Shown: piece after piece, positions 56,504 to 64,000 of the stretch
How the letters are laid out: each line of letters starts with the position of its first letter
Numbering within the stretch: position 1 is the stretch's first letter
Source: Rubrivivax sp.
GTDB taxonomy: Bacteria; Pseudomonadota; Gammaproteobacteria; Burkholderiales; Burkholderiaceae_C
Reading direction: 5' to 3'
Assembly (NCBI GenBank): GCA_030681795.1
Contig: JAUXRG010000063.1
Location: forward strand, 116,530-180,529
Length of the DNA: 64,000 bases
Made by a program: the position numbers and the translations under genes
The notes under the pieces: model-generated
Told to the model about the DNA's origin: nothing
What the model saw: only the letters and a program-made list of their open reading frames with translations
Database searches by the model: none

Positions 56504-57499
56504 ATGGCCAACCGCACGGCGCGGCTGTACCGCATCGAGACGCTGATCCGCTCGCGCGGACACGCCAGTTTCGCGCTGCTGCGGGAGGAGCTGGAGGTCT
56601 CGCCGGCCACGCTCAAGCGCGACCTGGAGTACCTGCGCAGCCGCCTGGGTGCACCCATCGAGTACGACCGCGCCGCCAACGGCTACGGCTTCGGCACCGC
56701 CCATGCCGGCGCCAAGCACGAGTTGCCCGGGTTGTGGTTCGACGAATCCGAGCTCTATTCGCTGCTCATGGCCCAGCAGTTGCTCGCCGGGCTGGACAGC
56801 GACGGCATGCTCAGCCGCCACCTGCAACCCTTGCTCGATCGCATCCACCAGTTGCTGGCCAGCGGCGAGGGCGAGGAGGCCGCGGCGAGGCTGATGAAGC
56901 GGGTGAAGATCGTCACCGCGCTGCGCAGGCCGGTGCCCAGCCGCTTCTTCGAGCGTGTCAGTGCGGCGCTGTTGTCGCGCAAGCGCCTGCATCTGCGCTA
57001 TTTGACGCGGGGCCGTGGCGAGGTGAGCGAAAGAGATGTCTCACCGCAGCGCCTGGTGCATTACCGCAACACCTGGTACCTGGATGCCTGGTGCCACCGG
57101 GCGGAAGCGCTCCGACGCTTTGCGCTCGACGCCATCGAGCAGGCCACCGTGCTGGGGACGGCGGCGCGCGATCTCCCGATGAAACGCGTGCAGGCCGAGA
57201 TGGACGCCGGTTACGGCATCTATGCCGGAGGCCAGCAGCGCTGGGCGGTACTGCGCTTCGACCGCCAGGCCGCACCCTGGGCCAGCCGCGAGGAGTGGCA
57301 CCCGCAACAGCAGGGTCGCTGGTGTGAGGACGGTGGCTACGAGATGCGTCTGCCCTATGTGGACGACACCGAGCTTGTCATGGACGTGCTGCGCCAGGGC
57401 GAACAGGTGCGGGTGCTCGAGCCGCCGGAACTCGTGCAGGCCGTACGACAGCGGCTGCTGGCGTCTGCCGCCTTGTACGGGGCACCCCAGAGGCCCTGA
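56504..57499 (+). CDS. WYL-domain transcriptional regulator
   Basis: N-terminal HTH, RYLTRGRGEVSERDVSPQRLVHYRNTWYLDAWCHRAEALRRFALDAI. Confidence 0.92.
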   Translation: MANRTARLYRIETLIRSRGHASFALLREELEVSPATLKRDLEYLRSRLGAPIEYDRAANGYGFGTAHAGAKHELPGLWFDESELYSLLMAQQLLAGLDSDGMLSRHLQPLLDRIHQLLASGEGEEAAARLMKRVKIVTALRRPVPSRFFERVSAALLSRKRLHLRYLTRGRGEVSERDVSPQRLVHYRNTWYLDAWCHRAEALRRFALDAIEQATVLGTAARDLPMKRVQAEMDAGYGIYAGGQQRWAVLRFDRQAAPWASREEWHPQQQGRWCEDGGYEMRLPYVDDTELVMDVLRQGEQVRVLEPPELVQAVRQRLLASAALYGAPQRP

Positions 57500-57522
57500 T
57501 CCGCGACGCCGGCGTGCGTGAA

Positions 57523-57880
57523 CCATAAGTCCTTTCCCCCACATAAGCTCCACAAGGTGTCGGCTGCAGCGGGGCATAGGCGTCACGAGGCCGCGTTGCC
57601 ACATGTGCAGTCAGCGGTTGCCGGCAAGGGTAGACAGCTATGGCAGCCATTGGCTGAGCAGGAAAGCACTTTCTGCATCACTGAAAGCATCAAATGTCCT
57701 TTCCCGAAGCGGTAGACGACGTTTCTGGTGGGCAGGCCAGAAGGGCAACTGACGAACGACATTGCGAGCCAAGTCAGCGCGTCGACCGGTACGTGAGTGG
57801 GATCGGATCCTCCAAGCCCGCGTTCCAGGCGACAGCTGATCCACATCCGATCTATCAGCGCTTCAGGAAAGCACTTATCA
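57523..57880. repeat. four copies (two in each orientation) of core RGGAAAGSACWTWYNR, candidate TnsB-binding sites
   Basis: Minus-oriented copies within about 57523-57538 and 57693-57706; plus-oriented copies with exact CAGGAAAGCACTT at 57659-57671 and 57864-57876. Confidence 0.6.
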
Positions 57881-57945
57881 AGTAGGGAAATCGGGCGCAG
57901 AATCTTCACCCGTGTTTTAGGCCGGCTGGATGCGACCGTGGCACC

Positions 57946-57964
57946 GGGAGCGATGTCCGCTCCC
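57946..57964. promoter_or_regulatory. hairpin GGGAGCG-ATGTC-CGCTCCC upstream of tnsA
   Basis: Perfect 7-bp arms. Confidence 0.4.
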
Positions 57965-58022
57965 TAGGTTGCTCCGCGATACTGCTCGGACCAGAGACGA
58001 GGATGCGAGTAATCCGCACTCC

Positions 58023-58036
58023 CTGGCACCAGGGTG
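58023..58036. promoter_or_regulatory. palindrome CCCTGG-CA-CCAGGG upstream of tnsA (possible operator)
   Basis: Perfect 6-bp arms about 50 bp before the tnsA start. Confidence 0.35.
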
Positions 58037-58087
58037 AACACCGCTTGCAGCGCTGAAGTCTGATGTGTCGTCTGACGGGAGGGTTTC

Positions 58088-58807
58088 GTGAGCGTATCCA
58101 GCTACGAAGAACCGACAGCAGACGAACTCCTGCGCGTTCCGGAAACCTTTGAGCGACAGCGGTGGCACACCGACCTCTACGCGCCCTACAGCCCCAAGAC
58201 GAAGCGGCGGGTGTACGCCTACGGCCGCCGTGGGAGGGCGCTCTTTCTGCGACTTGAGGCCGAACCGCTTGTCAGGCGGTTCAACATCTCCGTTCGAGAG
58301 GTGCCGTTAGTCGTCGGCGATCGCGTCAAGTCGATCGCCCCAGCGGCCATTTCGCTGGATCACGAAAACCAAGTGTCGATCCACACCTTCTCTGATGTCG
58401 TCGAGGAGCCGATGGATCCCGCACACCCACTTCCCGCGTCTCCTTGGAATGGATGGTGCCAAACGCGCGGCTGGCGCTTGATCGAGTGGACTCCCGCGGC
58501 ACTGTTAGGCCCTGAAATCGAACTGGAGAACTGGGAAATTCTGCTTCGATACCTGAGTGTGCCGGGTCGGGTGCCGAACAGGCCGCTGGAGGATGCACTT
58601 CGTCTGACATTGGCCGCAGATATCGAAATGACGTGGAACAGGCTTGCCAAACAATTCCCACGCGAAAAGCCAGAGACTGTCCATGAGTGCATCGCTGCGC
58701 TGATCCTGGAACGACGAGTCCACGCCGACATCGCTGCAAGAACGGTATCACTGCTGACTCGCCTCTCTATCTCGCCGCTGAACGCGGCTGAGCCGTTACG
58801 TGCCTAG
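58088..58807 (+). CDS. tnsA: TnsA-like transposon endonuclease-fold protein, catalytic residues apparently lost
   Basis: Position before tnsB; DLYAPYSPKTKRRVYAYGRRGRALFLRLEAEPLVRRF N-terminal TnsA layout and GWRLIEWTPAALLGPEIELENWEILLRYL, but no ExxLE, PDF or (E/Q)xK motif. Confidence 0.75.
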   Translation: MSVSSYEEPTADELLRVPETFERQRWHTDLYAPYSPKTKRRVYAYGRRGRALFLRLEAEPLVRRFNISVREVPLVVGDRVKSIAPAAISLDHENQVSIHTFSDVVEEPMDPAHPLPASPWNGWCQTRGWRLIEWTPAALLGPEIELENWEILLRYLSVPGRVPNRPLEDALRLTLAADIEMTWNRLAKQFPREKPETVHECIAALILERRVHADIAARTVSLLTRLSISPLNAAEPLRA

Positions 58808-60749
58808 ATCCACAGCACGGTATGCCTGTCTGGTCGACGTGGAAGACTGGCCAGACGTTGTTGACCTTGCTGTTGGAGCGGACGCACGTGCGTTCTACCA
58901 GAATCGTGTTTCCGCTTTCATTCAATACAAACAGGGCGCGTCTACAAGACTCATTGAAAACAGCACAGGGCTGACCAGGCAACTATTGCGTTACTGGCTT
59001 TGTCGTTGCAGCGAAACGGATTCTGATGGGAATGTACTCGGATGGCGAGTACTCGTTCCGTATAAGCACTTGCCCGCACCGAGACGTGTAGATGTGCGGG
59101 TGCTTGAGGCATCCAAGCCTTTGCCCGGCTCACTCCGCGCACTATTCTTGAAGTTTCCCGACGTCAAGACTGCCGTGTTTAATGCTGCTGTTCATGGCAA
59201 GCATCCACGATCAAGGAGAAAGGATCCCAGAATGACCTGGGATGCCATCCACTCGATATTCCTTAGTGAGTGTACCGAAGCTGGCATAAGAGCGCCACAC
59301 TATCCCTTCAACAGCGAAAGAAGTGGTAGGGCGGCGCTGATCCGATGGGGTAAACGGGAGCGAGCTACTGAGATTCATCGATCGCAGCTTTCCCAGGCAA
59401 TCACGCGCCAGAAAAACCCATGGGCAACGCACTCATCCTCCGCTGTTCGCTGCTATCAGGACTGCTCGGTTGACGGTCATTACGTTGATATACAACTGCG
59501 GGTTGTATATGAGTCGCTCAATGGAGGCGCGAAGATTGAACTCAACTTCACGCGACTATGGCTAATTGCGATTATAGAAGAAAAGAGCACGGCCGTGCTC
59601 GGCTACTCGATCGCACTCGGTGCAAACTACTCAGCTGAGGATGTAACTCGAGCGCTGCGATCCGCACTTGCACCGTGGAAGCCGCGCGCGCTGACGGTCT
59701 CCACGGTTGCTCACAGGCCGGGTGACTGCCTCCCAACGGGATTCGACCCTGATTTGGAGTACGTCTGCTTCGATCGGCTTAAGCTTGACAACGCCCTCGC
59801 GCACAAATCAAAGGCGCTGCTCTCCACGATGGATCAAACCGTGCAAGCCGTGCCGATTTTCGGTGCGCGCGCGAGTCCCAATGAACGGCCGCTCATAGAA
59901 CGTGTCTTTGGTCTGTTTGAAGAGGCCGGTGTTCATGTTCTGGACGGCACTACGGGTTCGTCGCCCAAAGACAGCCGGCGCGATAACTCCAAGGCGGTGC
60001 AGTACAAGCTCACCATCGAGTTACTTGAGGACCTGATCGAACTGCTGGTCACTCGATACAACGGGAGCATCTGCCCAGGGTCGACTCAAACACGTCTGGA
60101 GATATTGAAGCACTACGTTCAACGTACTCCTAATCTTGTTCGTCGGGTGGCTCCACGTAGAAGGGAGCAACTCCTGGAGTTTGACGTATACGAAGAGGCC
60201 GTCATCGGCATTGATGGCGATGAGCCGTTGTTAAGGTGGCGAAATGCCAGGTACTACAACAAGGTCGCCTTGGCTGACCCCGCATTGGTGGGGAAAGCCG
60301 TCCTTGTCATGTGCAATAGCCAGGATGCACGAAGCGTTAATGTCGCTCTTATGGAAGACGGAAGAGTCCTCGGCAACTTTACGGTCGAGCGCCGATGGAA
60401 GAGCACACCCCACTCGCTACAAACTCGAACTCTGATTTGCAGGGCGATGGCGAGCAAAAGTTTTGTCACTAACTCAGCGGACCTGCCGAGAGCATTTAGG
60501 GCGCATGTCGAACAGTCCGCCAAAGAGCAGCGGGCCAAGCAGCGGACACTCATGCGACTAGGTCGGGAACAGGTCAAGCCAAGCTCATCCCCTGAGGAGA
60601 GTAGCGACGCAGTGGCCGCGGTACCGGTGGCCGGCCCATCACAAAGCAAGACCGAAGTCCATGCGCAGCATGCGCCGTCGGAAATCCCCCCCGACCTGCT
60701 CGACGTGCTAGGCAGTACCTTCAACAGAACACCATGGCCAACCCGCTAG
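58800..60749 (+). CDS. tnsB: TnsB-like DDE transposase (Mu/Tn7 rve family)
   Basis: CSVDGHYVDIQL, LKLDNALAHKS, SPNERPLIERVFGLFEE (D-D-E); Mu-type C-terminal beta-barrel region. Confidence 0.92.
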   Translation: MPRSTARYACLVDVEDWPDVVDLAVGADARAFYQNRVSAFIQYKQGASTRLIENSTGLTRQLLRYWLCRCSETDSDGNVLGWRVLVPYKHLPAPRRVDVRVLEASKPLPGSLRALFLKFPDVKTAVFNAAVHGKHPRSRRKDPRMTWDAIHSIFLSECTEAGIRAPHYPFNSERSGRAALIRWGKRERATEIHRSQLSQAITRQKNPWATHSSSAVRCYQDCSVDGHYVDIQLRVVYESLNGGAKIELNFTRLWLIAIIEEKSTAVLGYSIALGANYSAEDVTRALRSALAPWKPRALTVSTVAHRPGDCLPTGFDPDLEYVCFDRLKLDNALAHKSKALLSTMDQTVQAVPIFGARASPNERPLIERVFGLFEEAGVHVLDGTTGSSPKDSRRDNSKAVQYKLTIELLEDLIELLVTRYNGSICPGSTQTRLEILKHYVQRTPNLVRRVAPRRREQLLEFDVYEEAVIGIDGDEPLLRWRNARYYNKVALADPALVGKAVLVMCNSQDARSVNVALMEDGRVLGNFTVERRWKSTPHSLQTRTLICRAMASKSFVTNSADLPRAFRAHVEQSAKEQRAKQRTLMRLGREQVKPSSSPEESSDAVAAVPVAGPSQSKTEVHAQHAPSEIPPDLLDVLGSTFNRTPWPTR

Positions 60750-61768
60750 ACCCGACACTTACCGCTGCGCTTCGTCGTCGCCTTGCGCTGCAACTCATGA
60801 CGGGCAGAGCCTTCCAGATAAAGACGCCGGCCACTGTTGAATACCTCAAGGCGACCCACAACTGGCTGTCGATGGGCGTGCAGGGAGGATATGTTCATGC
60901 ACGGTCTCGTACCGGAAAAACGTTCGGCACGCGCTGGGTCTTGGGCTCTCTACCCGTACTGCTTGATTGCGCGATTCCCTACTTAGAGATTCCCTTACGC
61001 GACCAAGTCTACGATTCAGAGCGGGCCTTTTTCCAGTTCATGCTGCAATGTGCGTGTCATCCACTTTATGCAAAGGGCAGTTCGGGCGATAAGCGTGACC
61101 GCTTGAGTCGCTGGTTGCTCGCGCGGGCACGTCGTTCACGAATCGGAACGGTAGTGCTCGTCATTGATGAGGCGCAACTCCTGAGCGACCATCACTTCCA
61201 GTGGCTGCTTGATATTTCGAACGAAATCGAGGCCGGAGGATATCGACTTTTTTGCCTTCTTGTCGGACAGGAACCACTTCACGCGCGCGCACAAAACATG
61301 ACTCGATACGCAGAGTTCGAGCCTATCGTAGCGAGATTTCTGATTTGCCATCATGAACTCTCCGCTATGCGAACTGAGCAAGATCTGTCGATGTGCTTGG
61401 AGCAGTTTGACCGCACGCTTTACCCTGTCGAGTCAGGTAAAACATTTGTCGAAAACTTTGTGCCAGAGGCGTGGGCACAAGACTTCCGCTTGGCTTCCTG
61501 CGCGCCGGCCTTTTTTTCGGCATTTCGTTCGCAGGCCCCCGTCGAAAAGGATGCACAGGAGTTGGATATTCCGATGGCCTACCTTGTTATGGCCTTGCTT
61601 CAGTTCCTCAATGCTGTTGCCGGGTTCGATTCCCCGACAGCGTTAGTACCTCAGGATACCGCTCGCAGAGCAGTCGAGAACACTAACTACCATCTGTTCA
61701 TGAATGCTCGTGCGGCGCAGGCAGATTCGGTTGGCGAGTCGTCATCCGCAGCACGACGCCGGCGATGA
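60734..61768 (+). CDS. tnsC: TnsC-like AAA+ ATPase regulator
   Basis: Walker A-like HARSRTGKTFGTRW, Walker B GTVVLVIDEAQLL. Confidence 0.9.
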   Translation: MANPLDPTLTAALRRRLALQLMTGRAFQIKTPATVEYLKATHNWLSMGVQGGYVHARSRTGKTFGTRWVLGSLPVLLDCAIPYLEIPLRDQVYDSERAFFQFMLQCACHPLYAKGSSGDKRDRLSRWLLARARRSRIGTVVLVIDEAQLLSDHHFQWLLDISNEIEAGGYRLFCLLVGQEPLHARAQNMTRYAEFEPIVARFLICHHELSAMRTEQDLSMCLEQFDRTLYPVESGKTFVENFVPEAWAQDFRLASCAPAFFSAFRSQAPVEKDAQELDIPMAYLVMALLQFLNAVAGFDSPTALVPQDTARRAVENTNYHLFMNARAAQADSVGESSSAARRRR

Positions 61769-63768
61769 TGAACGGATCCTTCACTTGGCCGGCAGGACAC
61801 TTGAGGCGGTTTGAATCTGTCAGTTCCGTTGGCGCATGGTTCTGCTACTTTAACGCCGTCGGACCGCGCGACTTCGGGTCGTTGCTGGCGCAGTATTGTT
61901 CGGCTGCATCTTATTCTGGGGTCACTACAGTAGACCGTCCCGGATTTAGCGGAGCAGGATTGGCGAAGCGGCTCGGTGAGGACGCAAGAATTGTTGAGTC
62001 GTTAGGTTGTGCGAGGCTACTTGCCGCCTGGGATACACCTGATATCAGGCTCTTCGGTCACCAGAATGCATTTTCAGAGCGTGACGCAGTGATACTGCCA
62101 TTTCGGCCTACGTTTGATCTACTGCGCGTATGCACTACCTGCATGAGGCTCCGGTTTCACAGTTATCTGCATCAGATCGAGGACTTCGCCGAGTGCCCCT
62201 TCCATAGAGACGTCACTTTGCAGTACTACCGTGACTTAACGATGCAACCTCCGAGGCTAAATCGGCTCGTCGGAACAGATTCAAGATATGTCAAGGTCCT
62301 TCATAACCAGTGGTTTGATTCGTCTTCAGTGTTGGACTGGCACACCTTGCGAGACCGCGACCCATTCGGTCAGGCGCAATGCAATAGGCTGATCGCTAGC
62401 CTGAGTAAACGATTCGCGAGGTTGCGCAGAAGCGCTGAGCAGGCAGGGGAGGATCAGGCGCCCCAGATGCTGGTTGTAGGTCCAAACACCAACGCACTAA
62501 TTTGGCAGTCCTTGGCTGTCGCCCGTATTCCGGCCTCGCGTCGGCCTGCGCAGGGGTCGAATGACTGGTCAGCCAAGCCCGCGGTCTGGGAAATCAGTGC
62601 TAGCCGAGAAGAAGCCAGAGCAGTTTGCCTGTTAAGGCCAGTAGACTTTGCGCAGCTGCAGTTGCTGCGAAACGCATACTGCAACATCGCTGGAATAGAT
62701 CCGCCGTGGAGAACCTGTCGCAAGTCGATCGTAGAGCTTGAGTACCCAGTCGAAGCAAAGCCTTTCGCGGATGAATATGAACTCACGCTACGCTTCTTAT
62801 TCAGAGATATCATGCGCGCTTTGGATATGGATGACTTAGCTAGACCAGCACTCGACTACAGTCAACTCGATACCGCGTACGCCAGCCTGTCGAGTTTGAT
62901 AAGATTTACTGCGCGGATGAAGTGGGCTTGCTTCTGGAATTTTGATTCCCATGTCTATGCGCAAACTCGCACCGAGTATGCAACTTCTGCGATCACCGCG
63001 CTCAAGGCGGAACATCTGGACGGGCTCATGCTCGAAATATCGACCTCAGAGGAGGCCGTCAATGAACGGGGCGGATCGCGCGTTCCAATATCTCCGTTCG
63101 GGTTCGCTGCTTCAGAGTTTGGGTACCTGGATAATCCCTTCACGAGATTTGTTCTTAAGGCGCCGATTGGCGGGCTTGGTGCACTGCTCGATATATTTCT
63201 ACTGGAGGAGGTGAAGTTTGTTAAGAGGCTTATTCAACATGTAGAAAGACTTCGATGTGAACTTGAAATGGCTAGCGTGGAGAGCGCTTCACGTGTATTT
63301 CAAGCAGTCGTTCGGATGAGTCGCAGCACGGTGGCGATAAGCCGCGCGGGTGATCGGCTTCTGGTCTGCGTCTTGCCGCCCGGCCGATGTCAGTGGTCGG
63401 CTGCTTTCCAGCAGCGGACCCCCCGCCGCGACTTGCTGACCGAACGACCCTGCACGACGCCAGAATCCTCGGTGAAGGTAGCCGCCGACGAACTCCAGCG
63501 CAAGCTGGACGCAGCGCATGCGCGGGAGTTGCAGTTCCAGACCCACCTCGCCACTGCCACGGCCGACCTCGCCCAAGAGCGTACTTTGCAACATGATGCT
63601 CAGCGAGCTGCGGCCCAGACGCAGGAGGCCGATGCCCGTGCCGCCCGCGAACAAGTCGCCACGTTGCAGCAGGCGCTTGAACGCTTGACGGCGCTGTTGG
63701 CAGCCAACGCATCATCGCCAGCCATGCCGGCCGTGCGACGCAAGCGCTCGGTTCCGGCGGCTTCTTGA
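61765..63768 (+). CDS. tniQ: TniQ/TnsD-family target selector with atypical KfrA-like coiled-coil C-terminus
   Basis: Zinc-finger CTTCMRLRFHSYLHQIEDFAECPFH; downstream of and overlapping tnsC; C-terminal about 95 aa are an Ala/Gln/Glu coiled coil ending MPAVRRKRSVPAAS. Confidence 0.82.
   Translation: MMNGSFTWPAGHLRRFESVSSVGAWFCYFNAVGPRDFGSLLAQYCSAASYSGVTTVDRPGFSGAGLAKRLGEDARIVESLGCARLLAAWDTPDIRLFGHQNAFSERDAVILPFRPTFDLLRVCTTCMRLRFHSYLHQIEDFAECPFHRDVTLQYYRDLTMQPPRLNRLVGTDSRYVKVLHNQWFDSSSVLDWHTLRDRDPFGQAQCNRLIASLSKRFARLRRSAEQAGEDQAPQMLVVGPNTNALIWQSLAVARIPASRRPAQGSNDWSAKPAVWEISASREEARAVCLLRPVDFAQLQLLRNAYCNIAGIDPPWRTCRKSIVELEYPVEAKPFADEYELTLRFLFRDIMRALDMDDLARPALDYSQLDTAYASLSSLIRFTARMKWACFWNFDSHVYAQTRTEYATSAITALKAEHLDGLMLEISTSEEAVNERGGSRVPISPFGFAASEFGYLDNPFTRFVLKAPIGGLGALLDIFLLEEVKFVKRLIQHVERLRCELEMASVESASRVFQAVVRMSRSTVAISRAGDRLLVCVLPPGRCQWSAAFQQRTPRRDLLTERPCTTPESSVKVAADELQRKLDAAHARELQFQTHLATATADLAQERTLQHDAQRAAAQTQEADARAAREQVATLQQALERLTALLAANASSPAMPAVRRKRSVPAAS
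63395..63420. repeat. imperfect inverted repeat GGTCGGCTGC-TTTCCA-GCAGCGGACC at the tniQ/KfrA-like junction
   Basis: 9 of 10 arm positions pair; lies inside the fused ORF where composition changes. Confidence 0.55.
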
Positions 63769-64000
63769 GACTGAAAGCGCGGTCACCTCTCGGCGGCTTC
63801 GGTGCGCCAGAGCGAAAAACTCGGGTGCCGATCAGCGGTCGTTCGTGTGGGGCGGCAATCGACCCCGAGCGGTCGGTCGCCTCGATCGATTCGTAGCCAC
63901 GAAGCAGACGTTCAGGGGACAGCAGTCCAACACTTCGCGAGCGCCGACGTCGGTCCAGAGCGCTGGCACGGCCGGCCTGAGCGCGGCAACCGAGTCGCTC

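Follow-up and report, generated by a model that had tools for sequence, protein, structure and literature searches.

The cutting and assembly roles of TnsA are entangled in Tn7 and in the CRISPR-guided transposons used for genome engineering. We describe here a Tn7-like element in a 64,000-nucleotide stretch of Rubrivivax sp. DNA (the window, meaning the whole stretch that was analysed). Like Tn7 of Escherichia coli (TnsABC+D; TnsA structures PDB 1F1Z and 1T0F), this element has the A-B-C-D gene order, a TnsA with the two-domain fold, a DDE TnsB, an AAA+ TnsC, a putative zinc-knuckle targeting protein and, in its relatives, a 5-bp target duplication. In contrast to Tn7, its TnsA has lost the active site, the termini of the related clade read CGT...ACG, and its TnsC, at about 340 aa, is short and lacks the long C-terminal extension that binds TnsA.

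The replicative, cointegrate-forming transposition that we predict for this element is shared with the tnsA-less Tn5053 family and type V-K CAST. Unlike those systems, it possesses a tnsA homologue, which is conserved and under selection in its relatives; Tn5053 carries a resolvase, whereas the minimal relatives of this element have none. In the Vibrio cholerae CAST (Tn6677), a single mutation of the TnsA active site, D90A, results in cointegrates in >95% of reads (PMC8188705). This mutant is the closest experimental precedent for copy-in with a dead TnsA. It combines a TnsA that is structurally present but catalytically dead (as predicted here) with an active TnsB. However, D90A is a laboratory point mutant of an RNA-guided system, whereas the loss seen here is natural and fixed. 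Elements on plasmids of the Bacillus cereus group (for example L022, L030 and L002) belong to the same TnsB family (the window TnsB is about 27% identical) and have the same four-gene order but encode a TnsA with E, D, E and K that is matched by PF08722.

Gene content of the element

Positions 58088–63768 of the window encode, on the forward strand and in the gene order of Tn7, a tnsA-like gene (A, 58088–58807, 239 aa), a tnsB-like DDE transposase (B, 58800–60749, 649 aa), a tnsC-like AAA+ ATPase (C, 60734–61768, 344 aa) and a tniQ/tnsD-like gene (D, 61765–63768, 667 aa). ORFs A and B are present exactly as quoted in the initial annotation, and the element reaches beyond the piece covered there to include C and D. 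The genes overlap by 8 bp (A/B), 16 bp (B/C) and 4 bp (C/D), which indicates one operon, and the drop in GC content from ~0.69 in host genes to 0.50–0.60 over A–D marks the block as foreign. At window position 64000, 232 bp past D, the contig stops. No relative of the element was found in the phage and viral collections searched.

TnsB keeps its D, D and E, as had been claimed: an alignment of 10 members shows no variation at D225, D330 or E367. Window B shows a weak match to the TnsB of PDB 7svw/8rdu, and the TnsB examined matches transposase-core models below threshold only. The adjoining AAA+ TnsC is recognized by PF13401 (E 2e-11) and is homologous to the third gene of the relatives. D contains a zinc-knuckle region (CxxC...H...CxxH) that aligns with the fourth gene of the relatives; the latter matches TniQ (PF06527), for which D of the window is itself below threshold.

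Homology and active site of the TnsA-like protein

Window A has no Pfam or NCBIfam match, falling below the gathering score of the TnsA endonuclease family PF08722, and a direct sequence search of the PDB was also empty. Nevertheless, it lies where tnsA is placed in a large family, collected by tblastn with B (104 plasmid records) and by a scan with the B alignment (160 genome stretches); a similar small gene lies directly upstream of B in most of the loci inspected, and the Bacillus counterparts are annotated as TnsA. A profile of eight motif-bearing members matches 1F1Z/1T0F and PseTnsA in the PDB, with E-values of about 5e-5 and 6e-10. This alignment pairs the SDLE glutamate, the D and the (E)xK of the family with E63, D114, Q130 and K132 of Tn7 TnsA (PDB 1F1Z). 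The degenerate proteins, with window A as the first sequence, align to the intact profile over 191 columns with 99.6% probability (hhalign), while a profile built from degenerate TnsA alone has no match to PDB TnsA. Window A was modelled with AlphaFold2 at a mean pLDDT of 78; the nuclease domain is weaker and the C-terminal domain, a winged helix, is the best-predicted part. The best solved structures for this model in Foldseek are those of Tn7 TnsA, namely 1t0f (E 3e-4), 9bw1 and 1f1z (probability 1.00), with TM-scores of only 0.4–0.5, so that the fold assignment rests on the profile and structure lines together. A is thus a true TnsA homologue and retains the TnsA layout noted in the initial annotation.

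The same alignments bear out the loss of the catalytic motifs at the positions that had been indicated. G49 replaces the equivalent of Tn7 E63 and P85 that of D114, and the (E/Q)xK positions are occupied by H99 and F101 (MAFFT) or by I98 and T100 (hhalign), with no Lys or Asp/Glu/Gln in either alignment. The catalytic E-D-(Q/E)-K of cut-and-paste Tn7-type TnsA is therefore missing from window A (G49, P85, I98–F101). A frameshift hiding these motifs was ruled out, as no neighbouring frame restores them.

Distribution and conservation of the degenerate TnsA

Among 87 aligned A proteins, D is present in 81 and is replaced by E in 4 more, and only ten have the SDLE glutamate, nine of them from intact-type elements. 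The TnsB phylogeny recovers a Pseudomonadota clade of 78 rows (SH-aLRT 100) in which no readable TnsA has the glutamate and the lysine together. This degenerate clade comprises dozens of elements, mainly from Burkholderiales, and D usually stays; further Burkholderiales loci that were read later are of the same type. Intact triads were found in Bacillota, in an Acidobacteriota MAG and in several further genomes from the same class as the window (L014, L017, L018 and L128–L130). The window element, whose nearest relative is about 30% identical at best, groups with L015 outside the clade (86/85), on a long branch. The TnsA of L015 also lacks E, D and K, and the residue losses of window A recur in L015 and L124. 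Loss of active-site residues is seen in the window and about 75 relatives. A single origin of degeneration for the window and the clade was not rejected (AU p 0.12). On these alignments, the loss of TnsA active-site residues is fixed across a large, mostly overlooked Burkholderia-type family, which nevertheless retains the protein. One Variovorax element (L097) encodes an in-frame fusion of the degenerate TnsA with TnsB (851 aa). Four loci (L087, L123, L125 and L126) form a separate B-C-D group with no recognisable tnsA directly upstream of B.

PF08722 matches six of 37 sampled A proteins, which equals the number with an intact-type (Bacillota/Acidobacteriota) TnsA; all sampled degenerate TnsA are missed by this model. 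PF08722 is among the models used in two surveys (PMC8649781, PMC10293859), which may consequently have scored degenerate-TnsA elements as lacking tnsA. More generally, because common models miss the degenerate TnsA and the TnsB examined is sub-threshold, model-based surveys may overlook such elements or record them as tnsA-less. As to the suggestion that this is an undescribed lineage, the elements are common and their genes have been annotated singly, as hypothetical protein or integrase. The literature searched, which covered few subscription papers, describes tnsA loss and laboratory TnsA mutants, but we found in it no account of a naturally occurring lineage whose TnsA is degenerate yet conserved; the suggestion is thus partly right.

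The degenerate tnsA genes have a median dN/dS of 0.23 (0.08–0.38) in 46 pairs with dS of 0.1–1.0, and of 0.20 in 16 independent, non-overlapping pairs. These values are similar to those of intact Bacillus tnsA (0.13–0.23, from three pairs only), and tnsB has a dN/dS of about 0.12. The pseudo-nuclease is thus maintained by purifying selection in these elements; for the window's own tnsA, which has no close relative for comparison, selection would be an extrapolation from these relatives. We see an even chance that the elements represent a widespread Tn7-like family in which TnsA has turned into a conserved pseudo-nuclease that is under selection for a structural or regulatory role and fixes transposition in the copy-in mode. 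Such a change may have arisen more than once, and some sister elements would have lost the gene afterwards.

Integrity of the window copy

Alternatively, the window copy could be a decaying remnant, with tnsA in neutral decay and the right end lost or fused to host DNA, a reading that we consider rather unlikely but that accounts for several features of its flanks. Neither end of the element was located. The left end lies within 57471–58087 (no strand assigned), a stretch bounded by homology to the host WYL gene, which extends to at most 57471, and by the start of A. Four copies of the 13-mer GGAAAGSACTTWY (three exact, one with one mismatch) are found upstream of A at 57525–57878 in alternating orientation; noticed after the fact, they are candidate transposase sites only. 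When the flanks on either side of the window element were compared for terminal inverted repeats, none exceeded shuffled sequence, and the attempt to use the WYL locus of relatives as an empty site revealed no synteny and yielded no end.

On the right side, the GC content inside D steps sharply from 0.43 to 0.65 at about 63300, and the last ~155 aa of D, from this point on, look KfrA-like and have host-like GC; the last 100 residues resemble (41%, E 2e-7) the tail of a KfrA-like protein encoded elsewhere in this genome, on contig C82. The sequence from 63773 onward recurs elsewhere in the genome, and interspersed repeats occupy 63773–64000 (forward strand) directly after D, where the assembly stops. 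Judging from this sequence, D may be chimeric at its 3' end, the right end lost and the window copy immobile. Several features speak against decay: each of the four ORFs is open, they overlap and follow one another as in an operon, the TnsB residues are intact, L015 and L124 have the same losses, and dozens of relatives conserve a similar one.

The repeat is ~93 bp long with a AGCGGTCGTTCG core and was found at window positions 63773–64000, C82:111150–111244, C43:2281–2380 and C48:5957–6097, one copy being located just downstream of an integrase gene. The KfrA-like gene of C82 adjoins a tyrosine recombinase. The final 141 bp of the window are identical to the end of contig C48, which looks like an assembly overlap.

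Ends and movement of the relatives

Pairwise comparison delimited relatives of 4.5–5.2 kb that consist of A-B-C-D only, and the inverted termini of the minimal relatives read CGTnnnnCnAAnTAAnTnTGTCA. Minimal copies of about 4.6 kb have no room for another nuclease or a resolvase. Paraburkholderia sp. PGU19 contains two 100% identical copies of 4681 bp on two replicons; such elements have thus moved recently although they lack an intact TnsA and have no space for a resolvase.

Four of the 34 delimited copies (L049, L080, L102 and L184) have a flush 5-bp target duplication, which sets the duplication length at 5 bp; a few of the 34 have doubtful right ends. The intact-TnsA control consists of the one element that could be delimited (L064, flush CGGCT). 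The low proportion of flush duplications fits the expectation for frequent replicative rearrangements and recombination, but ordinary recombination between copies, or misassembly, has the same effect. In PGU19, the 5-mer to the left of one copy is the same as that to the right of the other (ACGAG), the remaining two 5-mers being unmatched; this crosswise arrangement fits what a cointegrate leaves. In Robbsia, by contrast, the p1 and p2 copies show a reciprocal exchange of their flanking 5-mers, a pattern explained by recombination or misassembly. A collection of every copy in each draft genome gave no information, since such assemblies collapse repeats.

Transposon termini of this kind are usually TG...CA. 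In the degenerate clade (L021, L131, L001, L029 and others), termini of the form 5'-CGT...ACG-3' were observed at both ends, at 33 of 34 left and 31 of 34 right ends. Paraburkholderia and Caballeronia genomes contain ~140-bp left-end fragments without a long tns match (G986 C214, G988 C207 and C254, G989 C76), perhaps truncated or non-autonomous copies. The left and right flanks of L083 (123–5299) form a perfect inverted repeat (TTTGCGAGTCGC), either an inversion product or an assembly artefact.

Proposed mode of transposition

The best explanation, which we regard as probable, is copy-in (cointegrate) transposition with the TnsA homologue kept as a non-catalytic structural partner. TnsB would cut and join the 3' ends, while the TnsA homologue, having lost its 5'-strand nuclease activity, would be retained as a non-catalytic subunit that probably contacts TnsB, TnsC and the end DNA. 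As the 5' strands would stay uncut, replication would convert the Shapiro intermediate into a cointegrate, which could be resolved by host homologous recombination or, in some relatives, by a tyrosine recombinase. We infer the loss of the nuclease itself, the structural role and the copy-in product. By analogy, the window copy would be expected to behave like its relatives, whose footprints fit copy-in, short of proof. The initial annotation had proposed copy-in or a structural partner; the dN/dS values of the relatives support the structural role, and copy-in is the best inference from the D90A analogy and the relatives' footprints. If this is true, the two jobs of TnsA, cutting and helping to assemble the transposase complex, would be separated in these elements, and natural, stable copy-in systems would be available for study.

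It is improbable that A is still a nuclease through migrated or unconventional active-site residues and that the elements cut and paste. Such residues might include the glutamate of the E57 helix, as window E57 (Tn7 E71), a neighbouring glutamate, does not vary among intact or degenerate members, and the D114 equivalent, which is kept in most of the degenerate clade; with both retained, residual metal binding by the clade TnsA is possible. However, K and the classical E never occur together in the clade, and the window element and L015 are without D too. Even less probable is a purely DNA-binding or regulatory function of A, suggested by its well-predicted winged helix, with another element-borne or host enzyme cutting the 5' strands, since the minimal 4.6-kb relatives encode only A–D and the cutter must then be a host enzyme.

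Larger copies occur on plasmids p2, p4 and p1 of Robbsia andropogonis BLB1 (L180, L181 and L182), where nearly identical elements of ~11.1 kb carry cargo and have the termini TGTCAAACG. In these copies, a tyrosine recombinase (DUF3701 + phage integrase), possibly a cointegrate resolvase, is encoded right after D.
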